Assembly (NCBI GenBank): GCA_030272155.1
Contig: CP126196.1
Location: 4,836,501 to 4,900,500, forward strand
Reading direction: 5' to 3'
From: Tetradesmus obliquus
Lineage: Eukaryota > Chlorophyta > Chlorophyceae > Sphaeropleales > Scenedesmaceae
Length of the DNA: 64,000 bases
Below the pieces are notes generated by a model that had not been told where the DNA came from, did not search any database, and saw nothing but the letters and a program-made list of their open reading frames with translations. Positions 10,891 through 64,000 of this stretch are shown here, piece by piece (positions within the stretch are counted from its first letter, which is position 1; every line of letters starts with the position of its first letter). The position numbers were made by a program, and so were the translations under genes.

Positions 10891-10894
10891 ACAC

Positions 10895-11967
<1,073 letters not shown>

Positions 11968-12148
11968 CAAACACAGACAACAAATCTACACGACACTTCA
12001 CACATGTGAACTGCAGCAGCCGACAACTGCCACAACACACAGTGCAACCAGACGCTGCACACCCGCACAGCGCCCAAGCCAAACCAAATGCAGACACGCC
12101 AAGCGCCACATCTGTGCACCAGCCGTCAACACCCAGCCAGCGCCACAA

Positions 12149-40311: not shown

Positions 40312-40787
40312 GATAAGTGATGCTAGGGGTCGGAATGAAAATATAGTTTGCTAGGATGCAGTAGATGATGGAGACAAAGAGCGGGGAAGTCGCAACCCAA
40401 AAGCAACTGACTGTTCACTGGCCACTGGCCACACGTAGAGCAACCGAGCAGGTGCTATGATCAGGGACAAAGCATCAGCGGGAAACTGTGTTCTTTGTAT
40501 GCTTGAGGGGCACTGATAGTAAGAGCGGAGGGGCTAGTATTACTCAGCAAGGGCTTGAGGCTTTGAACTGACAGGTCTCGATCGCAGCCCACCAAGTGAG
40601 CTGCAGTGCAGCATACGTCACGTTCTTGTCCATATGAGATTGCTTCTGGGTTGTTTGTTTTGCTCGATAATGTATGACGCCGAGAGCAGTAGTCCCGTCA
40701 TAAACTTGACCTGTTGACACCTGCTGCTGCACCGTACAGAACGCAACTTGGCCTTGCATTTTACAAGTATTATATAATGCATTTGGG
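40312..40787. promoter_or_regulatory. Divergent intergenic region
   Basis: 476 bases separate the minus-strand small gene from the plus-strand IQ gene. AT-rich TATATAATGC at 40771-40780 lies close upstream of the IQ-gene ATG. Confidence 0.35.
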
Positions 40788-41072
40788 ATGAATAGTCTCG
40801 AGGCGCAAAGGGTGCTGGCAGTGCTAGATGATGCTGTGGACAGCCTGAGGCAAGTACCTGCTGCCAGCCATGTCAGGGCTGGTGCCAAACGACACAACCA
40901 ACACCAATGAATCCTGGATCCGCAGGCTTGTGTCTTTCATAACTCCTGAAGTTGTTGCTGCTGCGAACCAGCTAGGTGGCGTGCTGGGGCAGGTGTGACA
41001 CTAGCAAATACCAGGGGCTGGCAACAGCAGAGCCTGTGTCCCATGGTGTACGCAGTGCTTGCCATGCACCAG

Positions 41073-41108
<36 letters not shown>

Positions 41109-43699: not shown

Positions 43700-43756
<57 letters not shown>

Positions 43757-44348
43757 AGAAGCACACTGCCGAGGCTGACGCGCTGCGAGCGGAGCGGCTG
43801 GCGCACGAGGAGGCGCTGCGGGCAGCAGCGGAGGCCAAGCGCAAGGCGGAGCTGCAGCAGCTGCGGCTGGAGGCGGCAGCCTACGCCATACAGAACGCAT
43901 GGAAGGTGCGGTAGTAGCAGCAGCTGCACCTGTGATTGATGCAGCTGTGGTGTGTTTGCGTGGGTTATGGCTGAAGCACAGGATGCTGGCTAGCCTCGAC
44001 ATGCTGTTTGGCCTTGCAGCAAGTGCGAGAACATGCCACAGTGAGGTTCACGCGAGGCCTGTTGATCAGCAAAAGATGTCACTGCGCAAGCGTAGTTGCA
44101 AGGATTTACAACCTGCACTGGATCGTGAGCTGCATGCATGATGCAGGTGATCAGCGGGTCTCCTGGCTATAGCATACTTGCTCGTGTACTGTGTTACCAA
44201 GCCGTATTATGTGCCGCTACATGCGGCCTGCCTGTGTTGCTGCCAGGTGTGGAGGAAGAAGAAGGCAGCAGAAGCAAAGAAGGCTGCAGGGAAGGGCAAG
44301 GGCGGGAAGGCGGCAGCAGGCAAGGCTGCTGCCAAAGGCAAGAAGTAG
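40788..44348 (+). CDS. IQ-motif coiled-coil protein, resembling axonemal DRC10/IQCD-type proteins, 9 exons
   Basis: Exons: 40788-40849, 40926-40992, 41357-41467, 41752-41838, 42141-42317, 42648-42794, 43041-43238, 43759-43905, 44247-44348. They give 365 residues in frame. Intron 1 uses a GC donor (CTGAG/GCAAGT). After an N-terminal helical part, long coiled-coil segments follow (EEDATARDNFAALAERRERA, ARKARKRAQQDCEAA, EADALRAERLAHEEALRAAA). Then comes an IQ calmodulin-binding motif, AYAIQNAWKVWRKKK (about residues 324-338), and a Lys/Ala/Gly-rich basic tail. Coiled coils plus one late IQ motif fit nexin-dynein regulatory complex subunits 9/10, an assignment from architecture only. An additional small exon around 41890-41990 is possible. 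Ghost copies of the NELQEQIK segment lie in intron 7. Confidence 0.78.
43322..43486 (+). repeat. Ghost copies of the IQ-gene exon 7 end
   Basis: Two degenerate copies of the TAYNELQEQIK end of exon 7 follow it within the intron: about 43322-43352 (YNELQEQTK, then a GTGGGC donor) and about 43439-43486 (QALTAYNELQEHIN, donor lost). Confidence 0.8.
43701..43757. repeat. (CTG)18-19 tract abutting a splice acceptor
   Basis: An uninterrupted CTG run forms the 3' end of IQ-gene intron 7 and ends in the CAG acceptor at 43756-43758. Confidence 0.92.
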
Positions 44349-44826
44349 GCCTGCAGGCAAGCACTATGGTAACTCGCTGTTGGGATTCGTTCGTGAGCTG
44401 CTAATGGCCCGTCTCTGGAAAGCCCAACGATATGTCACAAAACAGTGCAGTACACCAGTGCAGTACACCAGTACTGCAGCAGGGCAGGGAACTGTGTACA
44501 TTGATTGCGGGAAGATGAAATTCGCATTGCGATGTACAGTTCAAAGTGTATGGCTGCCTTACAATCGGGTGCATTCACAGAGCATCACGAGAACACTGCA
44601 GCTGCACGCTGGGTATTGCATGATGTTATAATTTGCAGGCCACACTGCATGAGGTCGATGCATTAAATCAAAGCGTAACGCGAGATTGGACAACGAACCT
44701 ACACCACGCTGTCGCTGAGCTGCTGTTCGCCTGGCAACACGCTACCTTGGACGTGCTGCACTATGCTGTATGCTCTTAAGGTTCGCTGAGGGTTGATTAA
44801 GCAACGTGAAGTGCTGTTTTTGCGTA
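44349..44826. promoter_or_regulatory. Intergenic, upstream of the MYND gene
   Basis: 478 bases lie between tandem plus-strand genes. A short direct repeat (GTGCAGTACACCA twice) lies at about 44444-44470. This should contain the IQ-gene 3' end and the MYND promoter. Confidence 0.4.
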
Positions 44827-45888
44827 ATGGATCAAGCAGCTGCCGCTGCAACGGCCTGGGCGGACGCTGCAGAGCAGCTCAGGAACAGGAATCAGCTGGA
44901 GGCAGCTTGCAAGACCATTCTTGACCTAGCTGAGCAGCCCGCAGCAAGCACTGCTACTGTGAAGCAATTGATCAAACAGAAGGTACTAACAGCATTGTTT
45001 GAAGCCACAGCATCAGTGCTGGGTGAGCGCAAGCGGCAGCGCGACTGGCGCACTGAAGCCTATGCAGTGCGTGTGCAGCGTGTGATTTCAGCACTCACTG
45101 CAGTACTGAAGGTGGCGACTGAGAAGGCACAGCAGCAAAAGCCATCATCAGCTGCAGGCGGACCGCACAGCGCTAGCAAGGGAGCAGAGGGCAGCAGCAG
45201 GGACGCCCCTGCTGGCAGCAGCAGCAGCAGCAGCACAGCAAGGGCACCAACTGTAGCCACTGCACGCCCTGCTAAGGCAGCTGGCTGGGTGCTGAACGGA
45301 CCAGCGTGGGACAGTATGCAGCGAAAGCTTGTAGTGGCCATGCAGGATGTGACAGCAGTGTTTGAACAGGCCAGCAGCAGCAGCAGCTCCACAGCAACAT
45401 CAGCGCTGCTGCCTGCTGCCACCCTCGCCTTGCCTGTTGAGCTAGCCTTGCTTACATCAGCAGTCAACAGCACACAGCCAGAAGGACTTTTCAGTTCAGC
45501 AGGAACAGCAGTCTTGGCTGTGCCAGCAGCACAGCTGGCTGTGGCAACCCTGAGAGCAGCAGCAGCAGCAGCGAGGCACACTGCTGATTCAGCAGTTGCT
45601 GCGCCTGCTGCTGACGTAGTAATTGTGGACGGAGTCGCAGCATGCATTCACATTGGGCGCCTGCTGTCGCACAGCTGCCAGCTGATGAGTCTTGCTGACA
45701 GTCGCCGGATGAATGCAGCGGGCGGGCCCATGGTGGTTGCAGAGCGCTCAGCAGCTCTGCTGAGGTCGCGCCACTTTGGGCAGCTGATGCTGGTCATGCT
45801 GGCCGTGCTCACACAGCTGCTGCTGCAGGAAAAGTGCCCAGCAGGCTGCAGCAGCAGCAACAATAGCAGCAGCAGCAGCGTTCAGCAC

Positions 45889-45936
<48 letters not shown>

Positions 45937-46308
45937 CTGCCTGCTGTGCCGTACCACAAGCAGCTGTGGCAGGACCTAGGGCTGCCTGCAGACCTCCTGG
46001 ACCATGCAGCAGCAGCAGCAGCATGCCAGCCCACAGGTGGCACCACATGCACAGCCTTTAAAAAATCTGTGGAAGCAGCTTGCTTGACAATCGAGCTGCT
46101 CGGCGAAGCAGCAACTCCTGGCAGGCCGCTGCTGACATGCTCGGACCTGTCCCCGCATCAGCTGCAGCTGGCGACCATGTCAATGCGGGTGCCGCTGCTG
46201 CTGATGGACGTGGCTGAGCAAGCCAGCAGCAGCAGCAGCCTCAGCAGCGGCAGCAGCAGCAGCAGCAGCAGCGGCAGCAGCAGCAGCAGCGCAAATAGAA
46301 GCGGCGGC

Positions 46309-46345
<37 letters not shown>

Positions 46346-47339
46346 GCGGCAGCATAGCCTGCAGTGAAGGCTTTGACAAGCAGCTTGCGGTGGATATACT
46401 GGAGGTACTGCCAGAGCCTTTGAGCTGCTGGCGGCTGCTTGGCACAGCCAGCAGCAGCAGCACAATAGCAGGTAGCTCCTCTGGCAGCAGTGGTGCAGTT
46501 TCATCTCCTCAGGAAAGTTTCCCTGCACTGCATGCTCAGTTCAGGCAATGCTGGCGCACGCTGCTGCAGCAGCTGGTGCGGACAACGCGCAGCATGCTTG
46601 CTCCTCTGCCAGCAGGCGGTTCAAACCTAGCAGCAGCGCCAACAGCAACAGCAGCAACAGCAGCAACCGTGGAGTTGCAAGCCACGCAGGAGGATGGCAG
46701 TGCATCACCGGGCGCTGCACAGCGCAGCAGCATCAGCAGCAGCAGCAGCAGCAGCAGCAGCATCTCACCAGGCGGACAGGAGCCTCCCGGCGCCTCAGTG
46801 CGTATCCTCTCCTCCTGGTCAGCTCGGCTGGCTGTTGTTGGCGGCTGTGTCAACGTCCTCAACCGTGCAGCAGAGCAACTGCAACAGCAGCAGCAGCAGG
46901 AGCATGCTCTCAGGCATGCAGCAGCAGTGATGGCGCAGCAGCTGCAGCAGCACCTGCGCACTGTTCTGCTGCCGCTGCTGCGCTCGCCTACCTGTGAGGT
47001 CGATGTGGTGATCAAGGGGGGTGCCGTGTGGGCGCAGTTTTGCAAGGTGCTTGCAGGCCTGTGCTTGAAGGACAGCAACTCCATCCCAGTACTGCCTTCT
47101 CTGCTGCTGGATGTCACTACTAGCACAACTGCTGGACGCCTGCAGCAGCAGTGGCAGCTATTTGGGCTGCTGCTGTCCTTCACCAAGGCGGTTGTGCTTG
47201 TGAGTGGCCTCCCGTCAACGAATGTCATCCAGGTACCACACACGCCGTGCCCAAGCAGCGTGCTGCGCATGCAGGCTTGGATGGAGGGTCGAAAGGGCCT
47301 GGCTGTTGCAGCTGGCGTTGCAGGCCGGCTAGCACAGCC

Positions 47340-47379
<40 letters not shown>

Positions 47380-48060
47380 GAGGAGGGTGCCAGCAGCGCT
47401 GCGGTGCCCTGGCTGCTGCTGCTGGTGCATATGCTCTTTGCTGGCAGCAAGCTGGCAGCGGGGCTGACTGCAGCGTATACAGCAGAGGAGGAGGTTGAGC
47501 ACACAGCACTGCTGGAGCTGCAGGGGTGCTTGACGATGCTGAGTATAGCTGCTGCAAACTGTGTATCAGCGATGGAGGGCAGCACAGCAGCAGCAGGAGC
47601 AGGAGCAGCAGGTGGCGGAAGCAATTTGCTGGTGCGCCTGCGTCAGCAGCTTGAGCAGCTGGGGCCAGCCCTGATTGCAGCTGCATCGAGCATTGAAGAG
47701 ATGCCATGGTCCTGTCCAGAGACTGGCACCGGCATCAGCATAAACATGAACTGCATGGAGAGTTTGCCTGAGCTCATGCAGCAGCTGCAGCAGTGGTGCC
47801 TGGCCTTCTGCGGCCACTTTGGGTCCAGCTGCTGCTGCAACAACCCCGCCTGCACCAACCTGGGCAGCAGCAGTGAGGCGTCACTGGTGGGTGGCAAGGC
47901 CTGTGTGTGCAGCGGCTGCATGGGGGCGAGGTTCTGCAGCAGGGAGTGCATTGCCGCGATGTGGCCACACCACAAGGTGACATGCCGTGCTGTGAAGCGG
48001 GAACAGCAGCAGCAGCAGCAGCAGCAGCAGGATGTGCAGCAGCAGCAGGATATAGAGTAA
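44827..48060 (+). CDS. Large intronless protein with a C-terminal MYND zinc finger
   Basis: A single open frame of 1077 codons starts at ATG 44827 (MDQAAAAATAWADAAEQL). Most of the protein is alpha-helical in character (for example LTALFEATASVLGERKRQ and RVQRVISALTAVLKVATEKA) and is broken by long Ser, Ala and Gln runs from CAG-type repeats. The last 75 or so residues hold the MYND finger (about 1001-1056): CCCNNPACTNLG, then ACVCSGCMGARFCSRECIAA and HHKVTC, with the Cys/His ligands in the expected order. A polyQ tail ends the protein. MYND fingers bind Pro-rich peptides in partners, and in algae they occur in large families of otherwise uncharacterised proteins. There is no SET domain. Lack of introns contrasts sharply with its neighbours and suggests retroposition or simply family style. 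The function beyond peptide binding is unknown. Confidence 0.87.
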
Positions 48061-48502
48061 GCAATGGCAGCGGCAGCAGCAGCAGGTTCAGGAATTTGTG
48101 GACGGAAGCAGCATTTGTGGGTGTGTGTGCCAGTAGTGGTTTCTTGAAGTGGAGGTTGTGCAGCAGTATATGCCTGGCACGCTTGCAAGTTGCTATTGGT
48201 GCTTGCTAAACCCATATGATTCAAATGTTGTGAATGAATGTGGTTATATATGCAGAGCTGACGTTTGCTGCATGGTTGTGCTGCAAACCTTGGCATGTGT
48301 GAGCCCTAGACCCTGGTGCCGCCTTACCAAGCAGCAAGCACTCCAGCCCATATTGTCGCGTCTACGGTGCATCACCTGCAGAAGTTTGCAACTATATGTG
48401 GCGGTGGTGTGTGGGTGTGGGTTGTCTCAAGAAGTGCAGGGAGTGCAGCACAAGTGCAGCAGCAGCACCTGCATGGCTCTTCGCGAGACAGAATGTTGAG
48501 GC
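48061..48502. promoter_or_regulatory. Intergenic, upstream of the APE2-like gene
   Basis: 442 bases lie between tandem genes; they presumably contain the APE2-like promoter. AT-rich TTATATATGC at 48243-48252 is the only TATA-like element noticed. Confidence 0.4.
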
Positions 48503-49031
48503 ATGAGCTGCAACAACGAGATTCCACTAAAGTTTGCCACGCTGAATGTAAACGGGTTGAAGCAGGGCTGCCAGAAGGTCTGGGACGCAAAGTACGATGC
48601 CGCAAACGTGCTGCACCTGCTGGAGCACCTGGACTGCGGTAAGTTGTAAGAAGGGTGTCCGAGCTGCGTAGAATATGTAAATAGTCGTGTGTTGATTTAT
48701 TTGTCACCGCTTACGTCGCGCCTTGACTGCTTGCATGGCCGCAACGCTTCCAGATCAGCAGCAGTACAGCCTGGGCTCCATGACCCTGCATGCACTTCTG
48801 GCAGTGGCAGCAGCACTGCTGCTCGTGCCTTGATAACCTGCGGATGCCTTTCTTCAGCATGACAGGCGTTGCAGCATTTGAGGACCAGCGACGATGCTCC
48901 ACGTGCTTGTGAAGCAGCAGTAAGTGATGCAGCAATGAAGCGTCTGCTGCTCCTGCTGCTGCTGCTTCCTGCTGCTGGAACGTGACACGCTCTGTCCTGC
49001 TGCATCTCTGCTGCTGCATCTTTTGCTGCAT

Positions 49032-49088
<57 letters not shown>

Positions 49089-51517
49089 CTAGACATTGTG
49101 TGCCTGCAGGAAGTGAAGCTGTCTGTTGCTGACTATGCTGAGTTCGGGCGCCTGGTGAAGGCAGCAGGCTGGTGAGCGCAACCAGGGCTGTTGAGAAGGT
49201 GTCCCTGCCTACTACTAGTCCCTAAGGGACGCGTGATCTAGCCCCAACCGCACCCTCCTCAGCTGCAATGGCTTAGCCATTCTGAGCAAGACACCCATCA
49301 GCCGATGTGTTGCGCATGTTGCTGCAAGAGGATAGGATGATTGTTGTTGGCTTTCAGACTTGCAACCCGTGCTGTTGCTGGGATGCCTACTTCAGCTTTG
49401 CCCGCACTTTCCCCAGCTACAGCAGCGTGGCTACGTGTTTGTTTCATAGACGTGTTATGCGTGCCGTTACCTCTTGTTATGTGTGCGGCGGCAGGGATGC
49501 CTACTTCAGCTTTGCCCGCACCTTCCCCAGTTATAGCGGCGTGGCCACCTGTGCATCACACAGACGTGTCACATGTACCGTTGCCATTTGTTGTATGTTT
49601 CATGTGCCGCGGCAGGGACGCCTACTTCAGCTTCGCCCGCACCTTCCCCAGCTACAGCGGCGTCGCCACATTCTGCAGGGCAGCCCTCAGCCCGTCAGCA
49701 GCAGAGGAGGGGCTGTTCAGGGTGCTGCCGCCACAGAATGCAGCAGCAGCAGCGGCAGATGCAGTAGCAGCAGCAGCAGCAGAGCCTGGCGGCGGGGCCT
49801 GTGGTGGCGGCACAGCAGTAGAAGATGGTGGTGCTGCCAGCAGCAGTGCTGCTGCTGCCGCTGCTGCCTTGTGGGGCATTGCTGCTCCTTGGATGAGTGA
49901 CATCCCCTTTCCTGCAGCTGAGCTGGCCGAGCTGTGAGTGACAGTGATAGGTGTTTGTGATATGAAGTTGCTTTAGTGTCAGGCTCTTTTCAAGAGGCTA
50001 TTGTACCTAGTTTACGCTGCACCCACCGGGCTTGGCATTCGGGCAGATGCCACCACAAGATACCTAATGCTGGTCCATCTGCCATATGCTGACGGTGGTT
50101 TTCCATGCTGTTGCTGCTGCTGCTGCTGTCACCAGGGGCACTGTCGAGGAGGCTGCTCACCTCGACGGCCAAGGCCGCTGCGTCATCACCGACCATGGGC
50201 TGTTTGTGCTGCTCAATGTGTACCTGCCCGCCTGCAGCAACGTGATCGAGCAGAACAGGCGCGCTCAGTTCAAGGTGTGTGGGGTACATGGAAACGTATA
50301 TGTCGGTATGGCGCAGCAGCGGCACTTGAGGAAGCGTAGGAATGTGGCAGCAGGCATGTGTCACAGGGCTTCTGCTGCACAGTATTTTTGATGTACAACA
50401 GCGGCAGCAAGGGCAGCTGATGCACAACAAGAGCTCAGTGGATGCCAGCGAGGCCAGATCCATCCCCACCAACAGCATGCACGGCTGCTGGTGAAACATA
50501 TCATTTGTAACTCATCCTGTCCCACTGCAGATGAAGTGTGCCATGTGCAAGGTGCTCGAAGCCCGGACGCGCTGCCTGCTGGCTGCCGGCCGCCACGTGC
50601 TGCTGGCAGGCGACTTGAACTGCCTGGCATGGCCCCAGGACTGCGCTGCCTTCGCTGCCGCGCCGCATGCACAGCAGGTGGGAGGTTGTATGTAACACAC
50701 CACCAGCATGTCACCCAAGGTTTGTAACATAGTGACGAGTTGGCGGCCGCAGCAGGACTGACCCCAAGACTGCGCGGCCTTTGCTGCCGCGCCGCATGCA
50801 CAGCAGGTGAGAGACCTCAACATGTCCCTGGAATGTTATACATTAATTTTTGAGTCAGAATGACCTCAACTGCCTGGCATGGCCCCAGGACTGCGCTGCC
50901 TTCACTGCTGCACCTCATGCACAGCAGGTGGGACAATGTGTGCAGCACACCACCAGCAACTTGATTGAAACGTCTGTAGCATGGTGGCGGGTTGGGTGCC
51001 TTTGCTGCTGCGCCGCATGCACAGCAGGTGAGCTTCACCAGCATGCTGTCTCCAGCATCTTTTGACATGAGATGTAGCAGAGCGATAAGTTGTGGTACTT
51101 GCTGGAGTATGCTGTGCAAGTTGTTGGCTGCCATTGCACAATGCCAGACACCGCTTCTGCTAGTAGTGCGTGGCGTGCCATTGGTTGCACCGCAGCGATC
51201 AACGGCATTGTTGCTGCTGCTGCTGCTGCTGCCGCAGGTTCGCTTTTATGACGGCTCCCCCTGCTGGGCCTGGCTGCGCAGCATGCTGACGTCACCACCA
51301 CCACCAGCAACAGCAGCAGCAGTCCCAGACTGTGCTGCCGCTGCCAGTGCTGCTGCAGGTGGCACTGCTGCTGAGGCCGCAGCTGCTGCAGCTACTGCAG
51401 CGCTCGCACAGTCACTTGCTTGGCCCCAGCAGCAGCAGCCAGCGCAGCATCACTCCTACAACAAGCGCATGCACAGCCACAAGCCAGACCACCGGCCCGA
51501 CCTGCAGCACCAGACCA

Positions 51518-51562
<45 letters not shown>

Positions 51563-53755
51563 GCTCGAGCTTTGATGCAGGTGCATTGGCCGAGGCTGCT
51601 GCAGCGTACAGCGGCTGCCTCATCGACACCCTACGGCACTTCCACCCTACTGGCACAGCGCTGTTTGAGGATTCAAGAAGGCCTGGGCGCTTCAAGCAGC
51701 GCTGCTGCTTCACTGTGTGGGACCCTCAATACACAAAAGGCAACAGGGTGGACAATTACGGCTGCAGGTGAGGTCCAAGGTCAAGTGTTCATGGTTACGA
51801 TGTTAGGATATGCAGGCAGGCTTAGTTTAGGGGTGTATGAAGGGACCCGCAGTTCACCAAGGGCAACAGGGTGGACAAGTATGGCTGCAGGTGATGGAAG
51901 TGTTGTTTGGCGATATGAGGTTGTTGGGGTTTTACATGTAGGGTTCATGTGTCGTGTGAGAGTCCCAGGTGCGCCAGGGGCAGGGGCGTGGCATGGCTGT
52001 AAGTAGTAGCATGTCATCAGGCGTCATCGGCAGGTGACAGGGCAGCTGTAGTAGACACCAAGTACTGCTGCTGCTGCTGCTGCTGCTTGCAGGGCTGACT
52101 TCATCTTGCTTGGCGATGCCGCACAGTACCAGAAAAGGCAGCAGCAGCAGCAGAAGCAGCAGCAACAGCAGCAGTGTAGCAGCACATCAGCTGGCACAAG
52201 TAGACAGCATGCACAGCGACAAGATGGAGCAGCGAAAGGTGCTGCCAGCAGCATCATCCTGCCGTTCAGCAGTTACATGGCAGGTGCCCGTGTGCACAGG
52301 TACAGCCTGCTGTCTGACCATGCAGCAGTAGAGCTGCAGCTGCGCCTGCCGCCTGAAGCAGCAGCACTGCTCACAGCAGCGCGCAGCAATGCGGCTGCTG
52401 CAGCCAGCAGGATCAACTGCAGCTGCAGCACAGCCGTTGCAGTTGACAGCAACAGCCACCACGGCAGCAGCAGCAGCAGTTGTGTTGTGCCTACTGGCCG
52501 TCGCATCTGCCCACCGCCTCTGAGCGCCACCTACCTACTGGACCACACAGTTGCTGCTGCATCTGCTGAGGCAATCATTGCACAGCTCTCCAGCCTAGCA
52601 CACAAGTTTGATGCTCCCACAGGCAACAGTGGTGGGGCCCTGAATACCGCAGCATATGTAACTGCAGCAGCAGCAGAGGTTGCCGCAGCCACATCAGCAG
52701 CGGCAGCGCCTGTGCTTGCTGCACTGCAGCGCTGCTGCAGTGCTGATGTGCTGACGTGCAACATTGTCAATGAGCTGCAGCGCAAAGGCGCACACTGCAA
52801 GCGCTTCAGCAGAAAGGCAGCAGCAGAGGCAGCAGCTGCCGCCGCTGCTGCAGAGGCTGCTGCTGCAGCAACAGCAGCAGCAGATACCGGCATGGACTGC
52901 AGGCGGGGAGTAACAGGGACAAGTCAACCCCCACAAGAGCAGCAGCAGCGGCAGCAGCAGAGTCCGCACAGTCGCGTCGAGTGGGGTTCAGCCATGCAGC
53001 AAACCCTAGCCAGGGCTGCACTGACCTACCCCCAGCAGCTGCCCTCTAGGCCAAACCCTAGACCCCAACTGGAGGCGGCACTACAGCAGGCCCTACAGCA
53101 AACTATGGCAGCAGCAGGAAGTTCTGCAGCAGATCTGGCAGGGCAAGTACCAGTAGCAGCAGCAGCAGCGCATGGGGAGGTAGGGCGCCTGGCAGCAGCG
53201 CTGATATCAGCGAGGCTGGATGAGGCTTCTGAGCCTGAGCTGGTGACTGCGCCAGCAGCTATGTCACGGGAGCTGCTGCTGGCAGATGACGATGGCGCTG
53301 CTGCTGCTGCTGCTGCTGACGGTGATGATGGTGTGCATGCAATGGAAGAACAATATGCACCAGCAGGCAACGCTGCAGCAGCCATGTCACCGCAGCTTGT
53401 GTTCGCGGACAACGACAACGCTGCTGTTGATGACGGGGATGTTGACATGATCGAGGCAGGGGTTTTGACAGCAGCAGCAGCAGCAGCAGCTTCAGCAGCA
53501 GCACCTTTGGCAAGGGCTGCTGCTGCTGCTGTTTCAGGCCGCAAGCGGCATGTTAGTACAGAGCCACTGCTTCCTCCTGGCCAACAGCTGCCACCTGCTC
53601 AGCGCAACAGGGCTGCAAGCAGCGCTCGTACCGGTGGCAGTGCAGAGACAGCAAGTGCAGCAGCTGTGGTGGTTGGTGGCGCAGCAGGCATGACGGCAGT
53701 TGTGGCAGCAGCGGAGGTGACAGTGACGCACACAGCAGGTGCACGTAGTGTCTAG
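48503..53755 (+). CDS. APE2-type apurinic/apyrimidinic endonuclease (exonuclease III family), 7 exons
   Basis: Exons: 48503-48638, 49093-49171, 49616-49933, 50136-50274, 50531-50677, 51238-51767, 52093-53755, giving 1003 residues in frame. Conserved catalytic blocks appear in order: FATLNVNGLK (Asn17), IVCLQEVK (Glu52), YFSFARTFPSYSGVATF (the APE2-like SGVAT block), NVYLP (Tyr207), LLAGDLNC (Asp252, Asn254), FHPTGTALFEDS, NYGCRADFILLGD, and LLSDHAAVEL (Asp525, His526). The family cuts DNA 5' to abasic sites and has 3'-5' exonuclease or phosphodiesterase activity in base-excision repair, in nucleus or organelle. Ala/Gln-rich inserts expand the domain. The roughly 470-residue C-terminal extension is Ala/Gln-rich, and I see no GRF zinc finger, which many APE2 proteins carry. 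Ghost copies surround exons 3, 5 and 6. Confidence 0.86.
49383..51892 (+). repeat. Ghost-exon copies in the APE2-like gene
   Basis: Two copies of the start of exon 3 (DAYFSFARTFPSYSGVAT) precede it at about 49383-49432 and 49496-49553, spaced about 112-119 bases, each with an acceptor-like GGCAG or TGG context. Exon 5's end (DLNCLAWPQDCAAFAAAPHA) recurs after the real exon at about 50767-50808, 50850-50929 and 50995-51029, each followed by a GT donor (GTGAGA, GTGGGA, GTGAGC). Exon 6's end (YTKGNRVDNYGC) recurs at about 51850-51890 as FTKGNRVDKYGC. Confidence 0.85.
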
Positions 53756-54358
53756 CCCCTGTTGGCTCTTCACCAGCTGACAGGAACCTGAACTGCTGCA
53801 GCAGTAGTCAGCAGCACGCCAACCACCACCGCATACGTCATCACAAAGCGCAGTTTCGCTCGCGGTGAGAGACGTGTGTTACTATGTTCGATCGGGTGCT
53901 GCTTGCAGCACTGCAATGGAGTGGCGTAAGAACCTTGAACCCCATGTGAATTGATCAAATACTTTATCCCGTGTAGCACTTCACAGTCAAATGGTCAAGG
54001 ACACCCGTGGTTCAACAAATGGGGGCCCGTGGCACGTTGTTGCGCGTGCAACACGACGCTATGATGGATCAGCCACTCTACATTGCCGCCCATATTGCCT
54101 GTAACTCTTGGCACATGGTTGCACGCAGCCCGTGTTGCGCGATGTCGTTCGCTTGCAATGCAGCTAGATGTCCTTGATCGCCACGTGCCGTCGCACAGGC
54201 TGCGGCTGTTGCATGTCACTGGTGAATGACAAACAAAATTGCACCTGCTCAGTGGTCTGAGCTTTGCATGGGTTCAGTTCCCATCGGAGCCACGCTCTGG
54301 GTGGCTGTGTTCATTTTGATGCACTAATAATTTAGGGCACACTGTAGTACAGATACAC
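53756..54358. other. Gap between the APE2-like gene and the TV-Pol unit
   Basis: The stretch holds a minus-strand ORF (53770-53979) with one hydrophobic segment (FVMTYAVVVGVLLTTAAAVQ) that could be the last exon of a small membrane protein. At 54247-54292 there is a tRNA-like D-arm plus T-arm fragment. The left edge of the TV-Pol unit, if mobile, should lie here, but I found no terminal inverted repeat. Confidence 0.4.
53770..53979 (-). CDS. Possible small tail-anchored peptide or terminal exon
   Basis: The 69-codon ORF has a basic stretch (RLSPRAKLRF) followed by a roughly 20-residue hydrophobic helix and a short end (VQVPVSW). It converges on the APE2-like gene 15 bases away. No family recognised; it may be a chance ORF. 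Confidence 0.25.
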   Translation of the reverse strand: MLHGIKYLINSHGVQGSYATPLQCCKQHPIEHSNTRLSPRAKLRFVMTYAVVVGVLLTTAAAVQVPVSW

Positions 54359-54652
54359 ATGGATCACCAGACTGCTGCATCACCACCAAGTCGCAAGGAG
54401 GCCGGCAGCCTATACTACAGAAACAGGTACAACACAGACCCTGCTTTTCGTGAGAAAGAACGCCAAAGGGCAGCTGCTTATATTGACCTCCGGCGTGAAC
54501 ACTACAAGAAGCTCTGGCAAGCAAGGCATGCTGCCAAAAAGGCTGCTGCAGCGGCTGCAGTAGCGGCTGCAGCACCTGAGCACAACACAGCCTGTGATGC
54601 GAGCTGCAGATCACATGCGCGGCTTAAAGCCACAGAAATGCTGGTACGCTAG
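54359..54652 (+). CDS. Small basic protein upstream of TV-Pol gene
   Basis: A 97-codon ORF ends only 23 bases before the TV-Pol start. It is highly charged and aromatic at the N-terminal half (SLYYRNRYNTDPAFREKERQ, then REHYKKLWQARHAAKKAA) and turns Ala-rich. Arg/Lys/Tyr-rich YYRNRYN-type segments occur in small DNA-binding-like proteins of large DNA viruses and related elements. The tight, same-strand spacing suggests it belongs to the same unit. No specific family can be claimed. Confidence 0.48.
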   Translation: MDHQTAASPPSRKEAGSLYYRNRYNTDPAFREKERQRAAAYIDLRREHYKKLWQARHAAKKAAAAAAVAAAAPEHNTACDASCRSHARLKATEMLVR

Positions 54653-54675
54653 GATAGGACACGACCCAGCACAGT

Positions 54676-57105
54676 ATGAGCTCAGCACAACAGCAGCCTA
54701 CTCTGACCACTGCCAACAACCTTCGTGCCACACTCAGCCAGCCTGGCGTGGAATGGTGCTTGAAGGAGCACTTTGATTACGACAGGGCGGAGCGCCTGCT
54801 GCAGGCACCAGAAGAGATACTGTGTGACGATCACAGGAAGAAGCTGAAGAGATTTATAAGGGCCGCAAAGATGGACGCAGACGGCCGCTGGTTTGTGAAC
54901 GCCCATTATGATTTCAGCACCAGGAAAAATCCAGTGTGCAAGCAGCAGGGACTAGGCCGACTGTACGCCGACGTCACGCTGGGCACACTGCCAACACACA
55001 TTCGCACCTACATTGTGACCGACTGCTTGGATGTCGACATCAGCAATTCTCACCCAACGTGCCTGCTCCACGCCTGCAAAGAAGCTGGCATTGAGCAGCA
55101 GACCCCCTTCCTGGCCCAGTACGTGTCTCAGCGCAGCAGCGTGCTGGCAGGCCTGGAAGCCGACTATGGTCTCAAGACACGGCAGGAGCAAAAGGACGCT
55201 GTGATAGCCGTGCTCAACGGCGGTGCCCCCCCTGGTGCAGGATCTGGCAAGTGGTTCCTGCACAACATGCAACGGGAGGCAGCTGCAATCTCCACGTGGC
55301 TGATGGCTGAACCACGCTACAAGAATGAAGTAGCGGCAGCACAGAAGCTCAAGGGCAAGGTTTCCTTCCTGCACTACTTGATGACAAGGATTGAGCTGGA
55401 CGTGCTCATCAGCATAGCATCATACCTGCAGGGCCGCAAGCTCACCATCAGATGCCTGATCTATGATGGCTTGCTGGTGCAGGCACCACCTAAGCAGGAG
55501 GACCAGCGTGCATGGCAGGCTGACCTGCTGCAAGGCGCAGAGGCACACGTGCTTGCAGAGACGAGCTGCAGCATCAGCCTAGCCATCAAACCAATGCAGT
55601 CGTGCTATGTGGAGACCCTCAAAAACGTGCCTGACTTCCTGTTCGATGATGACTACGCGGCAGGCAATTTTGTGAGCTTGTATGGGAAGTACAACTTTGT
55701 GCACACAAAGGGGAGCACACACATATTCAACAAAAGCACAGGGCTTTGGGGGGACTCAGAGCGGACCATGCGGGCAGCCGTGCATGCACTCAAGGAGAAG
55801 CTGGTGTTCAAAGTGGGGAAAACCAAGCTCAACTACGGCGGCTATGCAACGCATATTAGCAAGATGCTCAGCATGGTGCCAAACTACATCGATGTTGATG
55901 ACAACTTCTACACTGACCAGTTGGACAGCAGTCGAGGCAAGCTGCTCTTTGCAGACGGCATATATGATTTTGACACTGACAGCTTCACACCCAGCTTTGA
56001 CCATCAGGTGGTTTTTGCTGGACGCATAGACCGCAACTTTGACCGCCACGGCACAGCCGATGCCAAACAGCATGTGACAAAAGTTATGTGGGCGGACCCA
56101 TACACCTCAAAGCAGATCAAAGACGGCGTGCCACTCTGCGAGTGCATCGCCCTGGCCAGGGCACTCTATGGAGACTACAGAGCTCGCAAGGCATACATAC
56201 TGGTGGGCAACACTGGCACTGGCAAGGGTCTGAAGACCACAGCACTGGAGAAGAGCTGCGGCTCTTTTGTGAGCACCTTTGACATCAACAACTTTGTTCA
56301 CAACCCCAACAGTGGTGCAGACCAGGCCAAGCAACTCAGCTGGCTGAAGCAGATTGTTGACAAACGCATCGCATTGTCCAGTGAAGCTCGCACCAACACT
56401 GTTCTGGACGGCATGCTTCTGAAAATGGTGGTGAGCGGCGGGGACACCATCACACTGCGCACCAACCACAAGGATGAGAGCCAGCACATAAACCGCAGCA
56501 CACTGTTCATGATGTGCAACGATGTACCAAAGATCCAGCCATGTGACGATGCTGTTCAAGACAGAATCGGCGGGGTGTTTGACATGCAGGTGGAGTTCAA
56601 GGAGAAGCCCAACTTCTTCAGGCCTGACCATGAGAAGCCCAGAGACCCCAGCCTGAAGGACATGATGAACAAGCCTGAGTACCAGGCTGCCTTCCTCAGC
56701 ACACTGTTGGATGCCTACCAACAATACAAACAAACAGCTCACACAATTCCTGCAAGCGTGTCAGCAGCCATAGATGAATGGCTCACTAATGATTGTGGCC
56801 TGGAAAGCCTCTTGGCAGAAGTCTGCGAGTCCCAGCTTGACCCATGCACCATGCAACCCCTGCATGACAGCTATGTGCCCTTCGATTACCTCTACCAAGT
56901 CCTTGTTGTGGAGGGCGTAGGACCTCAGCGCAACAAAGTGTGCATGACCAAGACAAAATTAGGCAGGCAGCTAGCATTGCTAGGATATCAAAGCGACACG
57001 AGGCGAGTGCAGGGCAAGAATGTTCGCGTCAGGCTGGGCCTCACTGTGAAGCAGGGGCAAATAAATACATGCGCCCTTGAGGAGTATGGAGGTGCTGACT
57101 TCTAG
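54676..57105 (+). CDS. TV-Pol (family A-related polymerase) fused to SF3 helicase; transposon/viral replication protein
   Basis: One intronless 809-codon ORF. The N-terminal half matches transposon/viral polymerases related to family A DNA polymerases: GLGRLYADV, motif A DVDISNSHP (residues 119-127), a motif-B-like helix QEQKDAVIAVLNGGAP (about 170) and motif C IYDGLLV (262-268). The C-terminal half is a D5/SF3 helicase: Walker A GNTGTGKG (511-518), Walker B DKRIALSSEA (562-571), sensor block LFMMCNDVPKI (Asn615) then QDRIGGVF, and a C-terminal winged-helix-like region. TV-Pol/SF3 fusions are known from eukaryotic transposons, virophages and Polinton-like viruses, where they replicate the element. 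All key residues seem intact and the frame is unbroken, so it may be recent or selected. It lacks the CAG-coded runs of all neighbours, consistent with foreign origin. No capsid, integrase or packaging ATPase is visible nearby. Confidence 0.9.
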   Translation: MSSAQQQPTLTTANNLRATLSQPGVEWCLKEHFDYDRAERLLQAPEEILCDDHRKKLKRFIRAAKMDADGRWFVNAHYDFSTRKNPVCKQQGLGRLYADVTLGTLPTHIRTYIVTDCLDVDISNSHPTCLLHACKEAGIEQQTPFLAQYVSQRSSVLAGLEADYGLKTRQEQKDAVIAVLNGGAPPGAGSGKWFLHNMQREAAAISTWLMAEPRYKNEVAAAQKLKGKVSFLHYLMTRIELDVLISIASYLQGRKLTIRCLIYDGLLVQAPPKQEDQRAWQADLLQGAEAHVLAETSCSISLAIKPMQSCYVETLKNVPDFLFDDDYAAGNFVSLYGKYNFVHTKGSTHIFNKSTGLWGDSERTMRAAVHALKEKLVFKVGKTKLNYGGYATHISKMLSMVPNYIDVDDNFYTDQLDSSRGKLLFADGIYDFDTDSFTPSFDHQVVFAGRIDRNFDRHGTADAKQHVTKVMWADPYTSKQIKDGVPLCECIALARALYGDYRARKAYILVGNTGTGKGLKTTALEKSCGSFVSTFDINNFVHNPNSGADQAKQLSWLKQIVDKRIALSSEARTNTVLDGMLLKMVVSGGDTITLRTNHKDESQHINRSTLFMMCNDVPKIQPCDDAVQDRIGGVFDMQVEFKEKPNFFRPDHEKPRDPSLKDMMNKPEYQAAFLSTLLDAYQQYKQTAHTIPASVSAAIDEWLTNDCGLESLLAEVCESQLDPCTMQPLHDSYVPFDYLYQVLVVEGVGPQRNKVCMTKTKLGRQLALLGYQSDTRRVQGKNVRVRLGLTVKQGQINTCALEEYGGADF

Positions 57106-57250
57106 TCATCTGTCCAGAGTGCACAGCAGACACTTTGCCATGGCACAGCAGGCAAGGCAAATGCGGCACCAGTTTGTGTTGCTATGTGTGGCTCAAATGG
57201 TTCATTTGCTGTGGAGAGGATCCGCCCACAATTCTGCACTCAACCCCCAA

Positions 57251-60200
57251 TGGACTAGGTACTAGTTGCTTGCCACAGGTTGCTCACCAACCTGTGGCAA
57301 ACCTGTTACGGTGTGCTGATGACTTCACAAACCTCAATCATATTGTGAGAACAGGTTCTACAGGTACAGGTTTTGTAAGTTTGTGGATGGCAGCTGATGC
57401 TTGTATTTATTTCATTTGGCGTGCAATGTGCCACAGCATCACAAGGTTCGGCAACCTGTACCTGTGGCACCTGTTTCATCAAATCAACTGGAGCGGCTGG
57501 TTTGTAGCAACATCACATGTCTGTTGTCAAAGGAACTAAGTACCAATTGCGTGCCACAGGTTGCTCACCAACCTGTGGCAAATCTGTTACGGTGTTGCTG
57601 ATGACTTCACAAACCTCAATCATATTGTGAGAACAGGTTCTACAGGTACAGGTTTTGTAAGTTTGTGGATGGCAGCTGATGCTTGTATTTATTTCATTTG
57701 GCGTGCAATGTGCCACAGCATCACAAGGGTCGGCAACCTGTACCTGTGGCACCTGTTTCATCAAATCAACTGGAGCGGCTGGTTTGTAGCAACATCACAT
57801 GTCTGTTGTCAAAGGAACTAAGCACCAGTTGCTTGCCACAGGTTGCTCACCAACCTGTGGCAAACCTGTTACGGTGTTGCTGATGACTTCACAAACCTCA
57901 ATCATATTGTGAGAACAGGTTCTACAGGTACAGGTTTTGTAAGTTCGTGGATGGCAGCTGATGCTTGTATTTATTTCATTTGGCGTGCAATGTGCCACAG
58001 CATCACAAGGGTCGGCAACCTGTACCTGTGGCACCTGTTTCATCAAATCAACTGGAGCGGCTGGTTTGTAGCAACATCACATGTCTGTTGTCAAAGGAAC
58101 TAAGTCCCAGTTGCTTGCCACAGGTTGCTCACCAACCTGTGGCAAACCTGTTACGGTGTTGCTGATGACTTCACAAACCTCAATCATATTGTGAGAACAG
58201 GTTTTACAGGTACAGGTTTTGTAAGTTTGTGGATGGCAGCTGATGCTTGTATTTATTTCATTTGGCGTGCAATGTGCCACAGCATCACAAGGGTCGGCAA
58301 CCTGTACCTGTGGCACCTGTTTCATCAAATCAACTGGAGCGGCTGGTTTGTAGCAACATCACATGTCTGTTGTCAAAGGAACTAAGTACCAGTTGCGTGC
58401 CACAGGTTGCTCACCAACCTGTGGCAAACCTGTTACGGTGTTGCTGATGACTTCACAAACCTCAATCATTTTGTGAGAACAGGTTCTACAGGTACAGGTT
58501 TTGTAAGTTTGTGGATGGCAGCTGATGCTTGTATTTATTTCATTTGGCGTGCAATGTGCCACAGCATCACAAGGGTCGGCAACCTGTACCTGTGGCACCT
58601 GTTTCATCAAATCAACTGGAGCGGCTGGTTTGTAGCAACATCACATGTCTGTTGTCAAAGTAACTAAGTACCAGTTGCTTGCCACAGGTTGCTCACCAAC
58701 CTGTGGCAAACCTGTTACGGTGTTGCTGATGACTTCACAAACCTCAATCATATCGTGAGAACAGGTTCTACAGGTACAGATTTTGTAAGTTTGTGGATGG
58801 CAGCTGATGCTTGTATTTATTTCATTTGGCGTGCAATGTGCCACAGCATCACAAGGGTCGGCAACCTGTACCTGTGGCACCTGTTTCATCAAATCAACTG
58901 GAGCGGCTGGTTTGTAGCAACATCACATGTCTGTTGTCAAAGGAACTAAGTACCAATTGCGTGCCACAGGTTGCTCACCAACCTGTGGCAAACCTGTTAC
59001 GGTGTTGCTGATGACTTCACAAACCTCAATCATATTGTGAGAACAGGTTTTACAGGTACAGGTTTTGTAAGTTTGTGGATGGCAGCTGATGCTTGTCTTT
59101 ATTTCATTTGGCGTGCAATGTGCCACAGCATCACAAGGGTCGGCAACCTGTACCTGTGGCACCTGTTTCATCAAATCAACTGGAGCGGCTGGTTTGTAGC
59201 AACATCACATGTCTGTTGTCAAAGGAACTAAGCACCAGTTGCTTGCCACAGGTTGCTCACCAACCTGTGGCAAACCTGTTACGGTGTTGCTGATGACTTC
59301 ACAAACCTCAATCATATTGTGAGAACAGGTTTTACAGGTACAGGTTTTGTAAGTTTGTGGATGGCAGCTGATGCTTGTATTTATTTCATTTGGCGTGCAA
59401 TGTGCCACAGCATCACAAGGGTCGGCAACCTGTACCTGTGGCACCTGTTTCATCAAATCAACTGGAGCGGCTGGTTTGTAGCAACATCACATGTCTGTTG
59501 TCAAAGGAACTAAGCACCAGTTGCTTGCCACAGGTTGCTCACCAACCTGTGGCAAACCTGTTACGGTGTTGCTGATGACTTCACAAACCTCAATCATATT
59601 GTGAGAACAGGTTCTACAGGTACAGGTTTTGTAAGTTTGTGGATGGCAGCTGATGCTTGTATTTATTTCATTTGGCGTGCAATGTGCCACAGCATCACAA
59701 GGGTCGGCAACCTGTACCTGTGGCACCTGTTTCATCAAATCAACTGGAGCGGCTGGTTTGTAGCAACATCACATGTCTGTTGTCAAAGGAACTAAGTACC
59801 AATTGCGTGCCACAGGTTGCTCACCAACCTGTGGCAAACCTGTTACGGTGTTGCTGATGACTTCACAAACCTCAATCATATTGTGAGAACAGGTTCTACA
59901 GGTACAGGTTTTGTAAGTTTGTGGATGGCAGCTGATGCTTGTCTTTATTTCATTTGGCGTGCAATGTGCCACAGCATCACAAGGGTCGGCAACCTGTACC
60001 TGTGGCACCTGTTTCATCAAATCAACTGGAGCGGCTGGTTTGTAGCAACATCACATGTCTGTTGTCAAAGGAACTAAGCACCAGTTGCTTGCCACAGGTT
60101 GCTCACCAACCTGTGGCAAATCTGTTACGGTGTTGCTGATGACTTCACAAACCTCAATCATATTGTGAGAACAGGTTCTACAGGTACAGGTTTTGTAAGT

Positions 60201-62098
60201 TTGTGGATGGCAGCTGATGCTTGTATTTATTTCATTTGGCGTGCAATGTGCCACAGCATCACAAGGGTCGGCAACCTGTACCTGTGGCACCTGTTTCACC
60301 AAATCAACTGGAGCGGCTGGTTTATAGCAACATCACATGTCTGTTGTCAAAGGAACTAAGTCCCAGTTGCTTGCCACAGGTTGCTCACCAACCTGTGGCA
60401 AACCTGTTACGGTGTTGCTGATGACTTCATAAACCTCAATCATATTGTGAGAACAGGTTCTACAGGTACAGGTATTGTAAGTTTGTGGATGGCAGCTGAT
60501 GCTTGTATTTATTTCATTTGGCGTGCAATGTGCCACAGCATCACAAGGGTCGGCAACCTGTACCTGTGGCACCTGTTTCATCAAATCAACTGGAGCGGCT
60601 GGTTTGTAGCAACATCACATGTCTGTTGTCAAAGGAACTAAGTACCAGTTGCGTGCCACAGGTTGCTCACCAACCTGTGGCAAACCTGTTACGGTGTTGC
60701 TGATGACTTCACAAACCTCAATCATTTTGTGAGAACAGGTTCTACAGGTACAGGTTTTGTAAGTTTGTGGATGGCAGCTGATGCTTGTATTTATTTCATT
60801 TGGCGTGCAATGTGCCACAGCATCACAAGGGTCGGCAACCTGTACCTGTGGCACCTGTTTCATCAAATCAACTGGAGCGGCTGGTTTGTAGCAACATCAC
60901 ATGTCTGTTGTCAAAGGAACTAAGTACCAGTTGCGTGCCACAGGTTGCTCACCAACCTGTGGCAAACCTGTTACGGTGTTGCTGATGACTTCACAAACCT
61001 CAATCATTTTGTGAGAACAGGTTCTACAGGTACAGGTTTTGTAAGTTTGTGGATGGCAGCTGATGCTTGTATTTATTTCATTTGGCGTGCAATGTGCCAC
61101 AGCATCACAAGGGTCGGCAACCTGTACCTGTGGCACCTGTTTCATCAAATCAACTGGAGCGGCTGGTTTGTAGCAACATCACATGTCTGTTGTCAAAGTA
61201 ACTAAGTACCAGTTGCTTGCCACAGGTTGCTCACCAACCTGTGGCAAACCTGTTACGGTGTTGCTGATGACTTCACAAACCTCAATCATAACGTGAGAAC
61301 AGGTTCTACAGGTACAGGTTTTGTAAGTTTGTGGATGGCAGCTGATGCTTGTATTTATTTCATTTGGCGTGCAATGTGCCACAGCATCACAAGGGTCGGC
61401 AACCTGTACCTGTGGCACCTGTTTCATCAAATCAACTGGAGCGGCTGGTTTGTAGCAACATCACATGTCTGTTGTCAAAGTAACTAAGTACCAGTTGCTT
61501 GCCACAGGTTGCTCACCAACCTGTGGCAAACCTGTTACGGTGTTGCTGATGACTTCACAAACCTCAATCATATCGTGAGAACAGGTTCTACAGGTACAGG
61601 TTTTGTAAGTTTGTGGATGGCAGCTGATGCTTGTATTTATTTCATTTGGCGTGCAATGTGCCACAGCATCACAAGGGTCGGCAACCTGTACCTGTGGCAC
61701 CTGTTTCATCAAATCAACTGGAGCGGCTGGTTTGTAGCAACATCACATGTCTGTTGTCAAAGGAACTAAGTACCAGTTGCTTGCCACAGGTTGGTGAGCA
61801 ACCTGTGGCAAACCTGTTACGGTGTTGCTGATGACTTCACAAACCTCAATCATATTGTGAGAACAGGTTCTACAGGTACAGGTTTTGTAAGTTTGTGGAT
61901 GGCAGCTGATGCTTGTCTTTATTTCATTTGGCGTGCAATGTGCCACAGCATCACAAGGGTCGGCAACCTGTACCTGTGGCACCTGTTTCATTAAATCAAC
62001 TGGAGCGGCTGGTTTGTAGCAACATCACATGTCTGTTGTCAAAGGAACTAAGCACCAGTTGCGTGCCACAGGTTGCTCACCAACCTGTGGCAAACCTG
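57251..62098. repeat. 282-bp tandem satellite, about 17 units, with hairpin and iterated hexamers
   Basis: The unit length is 282 bases (the first unit is one base shorter) and identity between units is very high. Each unit begins near a hairpin with arms TTGCCACAGGTTG and CAACCTGTGGCAA around a 5-base loop (CTCAC); the first is at 57270-57300. Each unit has about nine ACAGGT or ACCTGT hexamers in dyad order. The unit is AT-richer than the surrounding genes and starts 145 bases after the TV-Pol stop. It contains short open frames on both strands because the length is a multiple of three; I regard these as non-coding. The array ends at a partial 18th hairpin, fused to a different repeat. Confidence 0.97.
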
Positions 62099-62755
62099 CT
62101 GCGTGCCCTGCCAGGCTGGCGATGCAAAGGGCTGGCGACCGCTGGGTGCCCTGCTACCCTGGCGATGCAAAGGGCTGGCGACCGCTGCATACAGCACATC
62201 AACTTCTCCATTCTCACATGCCAAGTTGCGGAATAATCTGTGTCAGCTGAGTGCCCTGCTAGCCTGGCGATGCAAAGGGCTGGCAACCGTTGTGTGCCCT
62301 GCTAGCCTGGTGATGCAAAGGGCTGGCGACCGCTGCATGGAGCACATCAACTTCTCTATTCTCACATGACAAGTTGCGGAAAAATCTGTGTCAGCTGCGT
62401 GCCCTGCTAGCCTTGCGATGCAAAGGGCTGGCAACCGCTGCGTGCCCTGCCAGGCTGGCGATGCAAAGGGCTGGCGACCGCTGCATGGAGCACATCAACT
62501 TCTCCATTCTCACATGCCAAGTTGCGAAAAAATCTGTGTCAGCTGCGTGCCCTGCTAGCCTGGCGATGCCAAGAGCTGGCAACCGCTGTGTGCCCTGCCA
62601 GGCTGGCGATGCAAAGGGCTGGCGACCGCTGGGTGCCCTGCTAGCCTGGCGATGCAAAGGGCTGGCTACCGCTGCATGGAGCACATCAACTTCTCCATTC
62701 TCGTATGCCAAGTTGTGGAAAAATCTGTGTCAGCTGCGTGCCCTGCTACGCTGGT
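62099..62755. repeat. 42-bp/65-bp compound satellite
   Basis: A roughly 42-base module (GATGCAAAGGGCTGGCGACC core) occurs in runs of two or three. The runs are separated by a 65-base module with core AGCACATCAACTTCTCCATT. The AGCACATCAAC landmark recurs at 62193, 62341, 62489 and 62680, spacings of 148, 148 and 191, so the larger period differs by one small module. Confidence 0.93.
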
Positions 62756-64000
62756 CGCTTGCCTGCCACGCTGGGGGGCACCCATCACATTAACTTGCCC
62801 AGCATGTGATGGCATCACAGCGTGTGCATTGTCAAATCACGCCAACCTGAGGAATAATCTGTGTCGAAATGCACAGCAGTGTGCCTGCCGGGCACACCGG
62901 CGCTGTGTGGTCGCTTGCTTGCCACGCAAGAGGGGCACCCATCACATTAACTTACCCAGCATGTGATGGCATCACAGCGTGTGCATCGTCAAATCACGCC
63001 AACCTGAGGAAATATCTGTGTCGAAATGCACAGCGGCGCTGTGTGGTCGCTGGCCTGCCACGCTGGGGGCCCACCCATCACATTAACTTGCCCAGCATGT
63101 GATGGCATCACAGCGTCTGCATCGGCAACTCACGCCAACCTGAGGAATTATCTGTGTCGAAATGCACAGCGGCGCTATGTGGTCGCTTGCCAGCCACGCT
63201 GTGTGGGGCCACTCATCACATTAACTTGCCCAGCATGTGATGGCATCACAGGGTGTGCAACGGCAACTCACGCCAACCTGAGGAAATATCTGTGTCGAAA
63301 TGCATAGCTGTGTGCCTGCCGGGCACAGCGCCGCTGTGTGGTCGCTTGCCTGCCAGCTGTGGGGGGCCACCCATCACATTAACTTGCCTAGCATGTGATG
63401 GCATCACAGCGTGTGCATCATCAAATCACGCCAACCTGAGGAAAAATCTGTGTCGGGCACAGCGGCGCTGTGTGGTCGCTTGCCTGCCGGGCTGACCCCA
63501 CACAGCGGCGCTGCGTGGTCGCTGGCCTGCCACGCTGTGAGGGGCCACTCATCACATTAACTTGCCCAGCATGTGACGGCATCACAGCGTGTGCATCGGC
63601 AACTCACGCCAACCTGAGGAAAAATCTGTGTCGGGCACAGCGGCGCTGTGTGGTCGCTTGCCTGCCGGGCTGACCCCACACAGCAGCGCTGCGTGGTCGC
63701 TGGCCTGCCACGCTGTGAGGGGCCACTCATCACATCAACTTGCCCAGCATGTGATGGCATCACAGCGTGTGCATCGGCAACTCACGCCAACCTGAGGAAA
63801 AATCTGTGTCCGGCACAGCGGCGCTGTGTGGTCGCTTGCCTGCTGGGCTGACCCCACACAGCAGCGCTGCGTGATCGCTGGCCTGCCACGATGTGAGGGG
63901 CCACTCATCACATTAACTTGCCCAGCATGTGATGGCATCACAGCGTGTGCATCGGCAACTCACGCCAACCTGAGGAAATATCTGTGTCGAAATGCACAGC
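62756..64000. repeat. Variable-period satellite (136-178 bp) with palindromic core, runs off window
   Basis: Eight copies of a palindromic landmark TGTGATGGCATCACA (one with a C change) start at 62805, 62962, 63098, 63236, 63394, 63572, 63750 and 63928. Spacings are 157, 136, 138, 158, 178, 178 and 178, that is, about 137 plus multiples of about 20. The variable part is a 20-base module around GTGTGGTCGCTTGCCTGCC. The array is cut by the window end. Confidence 0.95.

Follow-up and report, generated by a model that had tools for sequence, protein, structure and literature searches.

Why does an intact, virus-type replication gene stand directly beside 4.8 kb of tandem repeats on a chromosome of the green alga Tetradesmus obliquus? 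The two lie in a stretch of 64,000 nucleotides of contig CP126196.1 (C6:4836501-4900500), which we call the window, and were compared with a genome of 104.66 Mb in 17 contigs; counts from the genome-wide searches (protein, repeat unit and hairpin pattern) are lower bounds. Our preferred answer, which we consider probable, is that this is an incompletely preserved member of a small mobile-element family carrying a short basic gene (ORF97), a replicase that has been swapped between copies, and flanking tandem arrays. The features on which this answer rests are listed below by position in the window.

54359-54652, plus strand: ORF97, an open reading frame (ORF) for a basic protein of 97 amino acids (isoelectric point 10.0); gene common to the element family, with copies at C2 and C7
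54676-57105, plus strand: replicase of 809 amino acids, combining TV-Pol, a D5/SF3 helicase and a C-terminal winged helix; intact ORF with a single genome match
54706-55602, plus strand: modelled TV-Pol domain with the family-A polymerase fold (residues 11-309)
55639-56799, plus strand: modelled D5_N plus SF3/AAA+ helicase domain (residues 322-708)
56779-57057, plus strand: predicted winged helix, a candidate origin-binding domain (residues about 702-794)
57254-62098, plus strand: array of 17.2 units of 282 bp (98% matches) with 18 hairpins and 152 ACAGGT/ACCTGT hexamers; candidate terminal or origin array

The preliminary description of this DNA had reported a TV-Pol/SF3-helicase fusion in an intact ORF of 809 residues, a small basic ORF, and 17 units of a 282-bp repeat rich in hexamers; all of these hold. 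The reading frame is open, and models of its product combine a family-A polymerase with a D5 helicase. The polymerase part has the family-A fold, the conserved hairpin Arg, two catalytic Asp residues and the RxxxK fingers motif (the diagnostic motifs of TV-Pol being those of PMC2579912), and the helicase part has D5_N plus an AAA+ SF3 core with Walker A, Walker B and motif C. The best viral fold match of the protein is the replication protein of the Zamilon virophage, over 830 alignment columns.

Relatives of the replicase are found in other data sets: 32 proteins in a first search (31 of which cover 48-97% of the query) and 36 in a profile search. In a tree of 36 rows, made up of the window protein and those 35 of the 41 found proteins with at least 430 residues, the window protein forms a group with three proteins from JGI (support 100/99) within an 18-row clade (99/99). 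Four members of that clade (P0004, P0005, P0015 and P0033) come from four different contigs, 162-521 kb long, and are 87-98% identical, the pair P0015-P0033 overlapping by 61 residues only. Judged by sequence, such copies on separate contigs would naturally be read as a multi-copy family, in which P0015 (498 residues) and P0033 (443 residues) are shorter copies. A further relative, P0001, is 99% identical locally and 95% identical over the alignment, but up to about position 190 of the window protein its residues are different. That these data sets have copies of different length, each on a long contig of its own, counts in favour of a mobile element.

Within the searched genome, the replicase and the array each occur at one locus. 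The 809-residue protein has one match, so that a second TV-Pol copy, which the preliminary description had suggested looking for, was not found. The 282-bp unit gives 66 matching pieces, all within C6:4893754-4898598, which is this array, and the hairpin pattern is found at 18 genome sites, all 18 at this locus, while a reversed control pattern gives none. We therefore reject a dispersed host satellite, and there are no 282-bp arrays among these matches at loci lacking the gene, such arrays being part of what the preliminary description had named as refuting its reading. The distance from the replicase stop to the array is 148 bases (given earlier as within 145).

The array has an unusual internal structure. 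The array has 152 copies of ACAGGT or ACCTGT, 31.4 per kb, whereas all of the window outside it has 37, or 0.63 per kb, in agreement with the dense hexamers noted before. The consensus unit holds four copies of ACAGGT and five of ACCTGT, two of them within the hairpin and six in the arms of a larger imperfect palindrome, whose arms in the first unit (57350-57385 and 57440-57475) are 78% complementary. Nine copies of one canonical hexamer per unit exceed the maximum of seven reached, once, in 2000 dinucleotide shuffles. The hairpin sites are spaced at 282 bp, apart from a first spacing of 281, and their 11-bp arms, GCCACAGGTTG and CAACCTGTGGC, are perfect at all 18. A perfect hairpin in each unit, as first described, is thus correct for these arms, but the full 13-base left arm, and with it a perfect 13-bp hairpin, is present at only 11 of the 18 sites. 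An arm of 13 bp compares with a shuffle maximum of 12, found once in 1000 shuffles, and one unit folded as single-stranded DNA has a z of -4.4. Twenty-six of the 282 columns vary among units, with 0-10 differences per pair; unit types recur in blocks, with identical units at 58379, 60635 and 60917. This recurrence is as expected from unequal exchange or slippage. A single hairpin departs from the others.

61781-61811, plus strand: hairpin in the unit at 61763 whose 5-nt loop is inverted (reverse complement) relative to the other 17

The simplest explanation of the inverted loop is template switching or cruciform resolution at the palindrome, either of which would mean that the hairpin forms at least occasionally. 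Other accounts of the repeat were rejected. It does not behave as a coding repeat, since its variable columns are spread evenly over the three frames (8, 9 and 9). Derivation from the 3' region of the gene, or a relation to the upstream DNA, gave no alignment above shuffles. An Rfam match of the hairpin to mir-552, at E 0.13 and 21.8 bits where the gathering score is 100, is attributed to chance.

The evidence that this locus belongs to a family comes from ORF97. Its strong further matches in the genome are at C2:2578091-2578372 (76%) and C7:2085883-2086131 (70%), both containing a single in-frame TGA; for the remaining eight of 11 matches E is 0.01 or higher. Substitutions fall at third codon positions in 27/52 (P 0.004), 31/68 (P 0.02) and 29/55 (P 0.002) cases in the three comparisons, and this excess in all three indicates that ORF97 appears to have evolved as a gene. 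At the DNA level, C2 is homologous to window positions 54247-54292 (85%) and 54357-54659 (81%), and C7 to 54381-54569 and 54623-54667. Homology thus stops at 54659 or 54667, 8-16 bp short of the replicase ATG at 54676.

Beyond this boundary, C2 and C7 have a different coding region in common (1772 and 1707 aligned columns, 86% and 84% identical). Herpes_ori_bp scores above the Pfam cut-off in three of the eight ORFs scanned at these loci (E 3.9e-13 and 2.8e-5 at C2, 1.4e-5 at C7), and these UL9-like helicases occupy the same slot behind ORF97. Within 30 kb around the C2 and C7 copies of ORF97 we found no TV-Pol beyond a chance-level match at C7 (E 0.49). The replicase module has been exchanged: where the window has a TV-Pol/D5 helicase protein, C2 and C7 have a UL9-like helicase. 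The ORF that immediately follows ORF97 at C2 has 426 residues; neither a Pfam match nor a convincing PDB match was obtained for it, and it occurs, at E <= 1e-5, only at the C2 and C7 loci of this genome.

Both of these loci also carry arrays. At C2, an array of 151-bp units (2574019-2574420) lies about 265 bp past the replicase end, and its counterpart on the other side (2581097-2582076) is inverted relative to it, with 93.8% identity over 406 columns and about 6.7 kb between the two. At C7, arrays of a 49-bp unit (2078896-2080364) and a 52-bp unit (2087411-2088020) are likewise mutually inverted, at 67.7% over 405 columns. Two further loci are known from search coordinates only. One, C10:4037341-4055451, has C2-type arrays in both orientations (plus strand at 4048526-4048796; minus strand at 4051298-4052827, with more pieces at 4055045 and 4037341) surrounding a Herpes_ori_bp helicase gene with an internal deletion, the remnants between the array pieces corresponding to residues 1-74 and 449-621 of the C2/C7-type helicase. 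C2-type arrays thus occur at two loci, each time around a UL9-like replicase or its remnants. At the other, C5:5094849-5095250, is a 94% copy of the 52-bp-unit array of C7.

Taken from sequence comparison, the family layout would be ORF97 followed at once, on the same strand, by a replicase, with arrays on both sides that are mutually inverted where both are kept (C2 and C7, and C10 by coordinates). An array stands close behind the replicase at two loci, 148 bp away in the window and about 265 bp away at C2, which counts for this layout. The earlier suggestion of a mobile or viral-derived replication module is supported: the fusion is real, and copies of ORF97 elsewhere lie, together with a replicase, between inverted arrays. 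The 282-bp array is a candidate origin or terminus.

How might such an element work? We propose that the replicase, by means of a DNA-binding domain (in the window protein, this would be the C-terminal winged helix), would bind the repeat units close to the gene that encodes it. It would load its hexameric helicase there, then prime and extend, so that the element is copied either extrachromosomally or during transposition. If every replicase recognises sites of its own, this may be why array sequences differ from copy to copy; the arrays would expand by slippage or unequal exchange. The common ORF97, the swap of replicases, the inverted arrays and the single locus found for the 282-bp array are observed, while binding, origin activity and mobility of the window copy are inferred. 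A broader and more tentative idea, to which we give rather less credence than to the family itself, is that these are capsid-less, self-replicating eukaryotic elements that pair an ORF97-type basic protein with interchangeable virus-type replicases, each matched to its own terminal array as an initiator-binding origin, in effect a plasmid-like replicon residing in a chromosome. If true, this would link virophage and Polinton-like virus (PLV) replicases, foldback-type terminal tandem arrays and iteron-type origins, which are usually described apart, and would offer one step by which capsid-bearing elements and plain replicons might be interconverted. The same small gene with two replicases and different arrays would then amount to a natural swap experiment on replicase-array co-evolution.

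Several results weigh against the proposed family or its mechanism. The 282-bp unit aligns with the C2 and C7 units no better than shuffled sequences do (11/200 shuffles reach the score for C2, 9/200 for the C7 52-bp unit and more for the rest), and the longest exact hairpins of those two sets of units do not exceed the ones obtained by shuffling; a long imperfect palindrome can be made out in the C2 unit, though only by eye. At C7, 1.9 kb separates the replicase from the array behind it, and 1.3 kb separates ORF97 from the array before it. Variation is only weakly depleted at the hexamer positions (two of the 26 variable columns, P 0.09, not significant), and the C-terminal winged helix bears a weak resemblance to the origin-binding domain of P4. 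Codon usage lends ORF97 no support, since 137 of 226 background ORFs score equally well. The genome search gave a single TV-Pol copy, so that transposition of the TV-Pol version is only putative. At the window copy itself, a search for flanking terminal repeats, as the preliminary description had advised, gave neither an upstream array nor a terminal inverted repeat: 48001-54675 and 57106-64000 have no repeat in common. Finally, other tandem arrays follow the 282-bp array directly.

62098-64000, no strand assigned, the block continuing to 66022 beyond the window: further tandem arrays directly adjoining the 282-bp array, with unit lengths of about 148 and 136-178 bp; arrays of the 148-bp type were found at this locus only

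The 282-bp array may consequently be one block of a satellite-rich stretch. From this follows one of the two better-surviving alternatives, namely that the array is a satellite born locally in a repeat-rich region and only by chance the neighbour of a stranded replicase gene. The adjoining arrays, the lack of an upstream array, the absence of any relation to the C2 and C7 arrays above shuffles, and the satellite-like evolution of the units, with recurring blocks and three identical copies, would all be accounted for. Chance is a poorer explanation for arrays beside the replicase at both other ORF97 loci and for C2-type arrays around replicase remnants at C10. Arrays of this size were also uncommon nearby: with criteria of at least 400 bp and a period of at least 40, one array was counted in 101 kb of control stretches, which were taken near the loci and are local rather than random. 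The 40 kb to the right of the window was left out of this count because the satellite block extends into it; it holds the remainder of the block and one more separate array. We regard a local satellite as an unlikely, though serious, competitor. The right-hand satellite itself aligns with the 282-bp array above shuffles for 62099-62500 (0/200 reach the score) and nearly so for 62099-62400 (1/200), which may reflect a distant relation or shared letters at the junction; we do not build on this alignment.

About equally doubtful is that the locus is an eroded PLV or virophage with a TVpol-S3H gene, which has lost capsid and integrase and acquired the array as a late by-product. TVpol-S3H fusions are established in virophages and PLVs, including those of algae (PMC3671162, PMC10675990 and PMC12220804), and PMC12220804 reports both replacement of polymerase genes and a primase-SF2-helicase replicase in PLVs; the Zamilon fold match fits the same origin. 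Against it, no capsid was recognised by Pfam in the 26 ORFs of the window (both element ORFs included) or in the eight C2/C7 ORFs, which takes up the earlier call to look for capsid genes nearby. Pfam may cover the capsids of PLVs only in part, however, so this negative is a weak argument. No integrase (rve or tyrosine recombinase) was recognised in the same window scans or the eight C2/C7 ORFs either, a packaging ATPase being sought by Pfam only; frame scans of 39501-54352 covered four of six frames and were insensitive, missing a MYND domain that was detected at ORF level. The distance of about 6.7 kb between the inverted C2 arrays leaves little room for a virion module.

That the host has domesticated one TV-Pol/helicase gene for its own use, the array being irrelevant, is very improbable: the gene is intact and uninterrupted, one copy was found and a relative in the JGI data is 99% identical over the local match, but relatives in other assemblies are longer and shorter copies on several contigs and the neighbouring ORF97 is a multi-copy gene.

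Around the element, which we continue to regard as a partly preserved member of the ORF97 family, some further features deserve mention.

54247-54292, plus strand: conserved block of 46 bp upstream of ORF97 with tRNA-like D-arm and T-arm letters, 85% identical at C2 and not alignable at C7

By eye, this block resembles a tRNA D-arm joined to a T-arm without the anticodon arm, and could be an integration-site remnant or a promoter box. A tRNA gene was rejected: Rfam gave none at E <= 5, and ARAGORN at a low threshold gave only a poor Leu-like fold (54198-54293). Farther left, a separate repeat at 53756-53915, with a 98% identical copy 57 kb downstream (C6:4947674-4947833), probably bounds the element. 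An ORF of 1084 residues at 44806-48060, with a MYND finger above the Pfam cut-off and many CAG repeats, is probably a host gene, and an AC dinucleotide repeat of 1.1 kb (547.5 units, 98% matches) lies at 10887-11979.

How does this arrangement compare with known systems? None of the literature titles searched describes ORF97, replicase and array together, a statement about those titles rather than about all that is in print. The window replicase shares its two-domain architecture and fold with the TVpol-S3H proteins of virophages and PLVs (Sputnik, Zamilon and OLV type), but no capsid or integrase was recognised near it, and the portions of the PLV literature that we compared do not mention an array beside the TVpol-S3H gene. 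Terminal inverted repeats, a feature of PLVs and virophages, were not found at the window copy and take the form of arrays at C2 and C7. The UL9-like replicases with Herpes_ori_bp are alike in their slot behind ORF97, at C2 and C7, but belong to another helicase family than the D5 protein of the window. In P4 and the SaPIs, iterons lie beside a primase-helicase initiator. The present element differs in its eukaryotic chromosome, in having TV-Pol in place of another primase, and in its 4.8 kb of 282-bp units, to which binding is putative. Foldback (FB)-type and Tlr elements have tandem repeats inside inverted termini, and the C2 and C7 copies, with C10 by coordinates, resemble them in their mutually inverted tandem arrays on both sides. 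They differ in enclosing, between their arrays, a virus-type replicase that is swapped from copy to copy. Because the window copy has one array only, rather than the two mutually inverted end arrays of foldback elements, we class it as a relative of these elements and not as a complete member. We therefore file the window element as neither a PLV nor a foldback element, but as a replicase-swapped, array-bearing mobile element.

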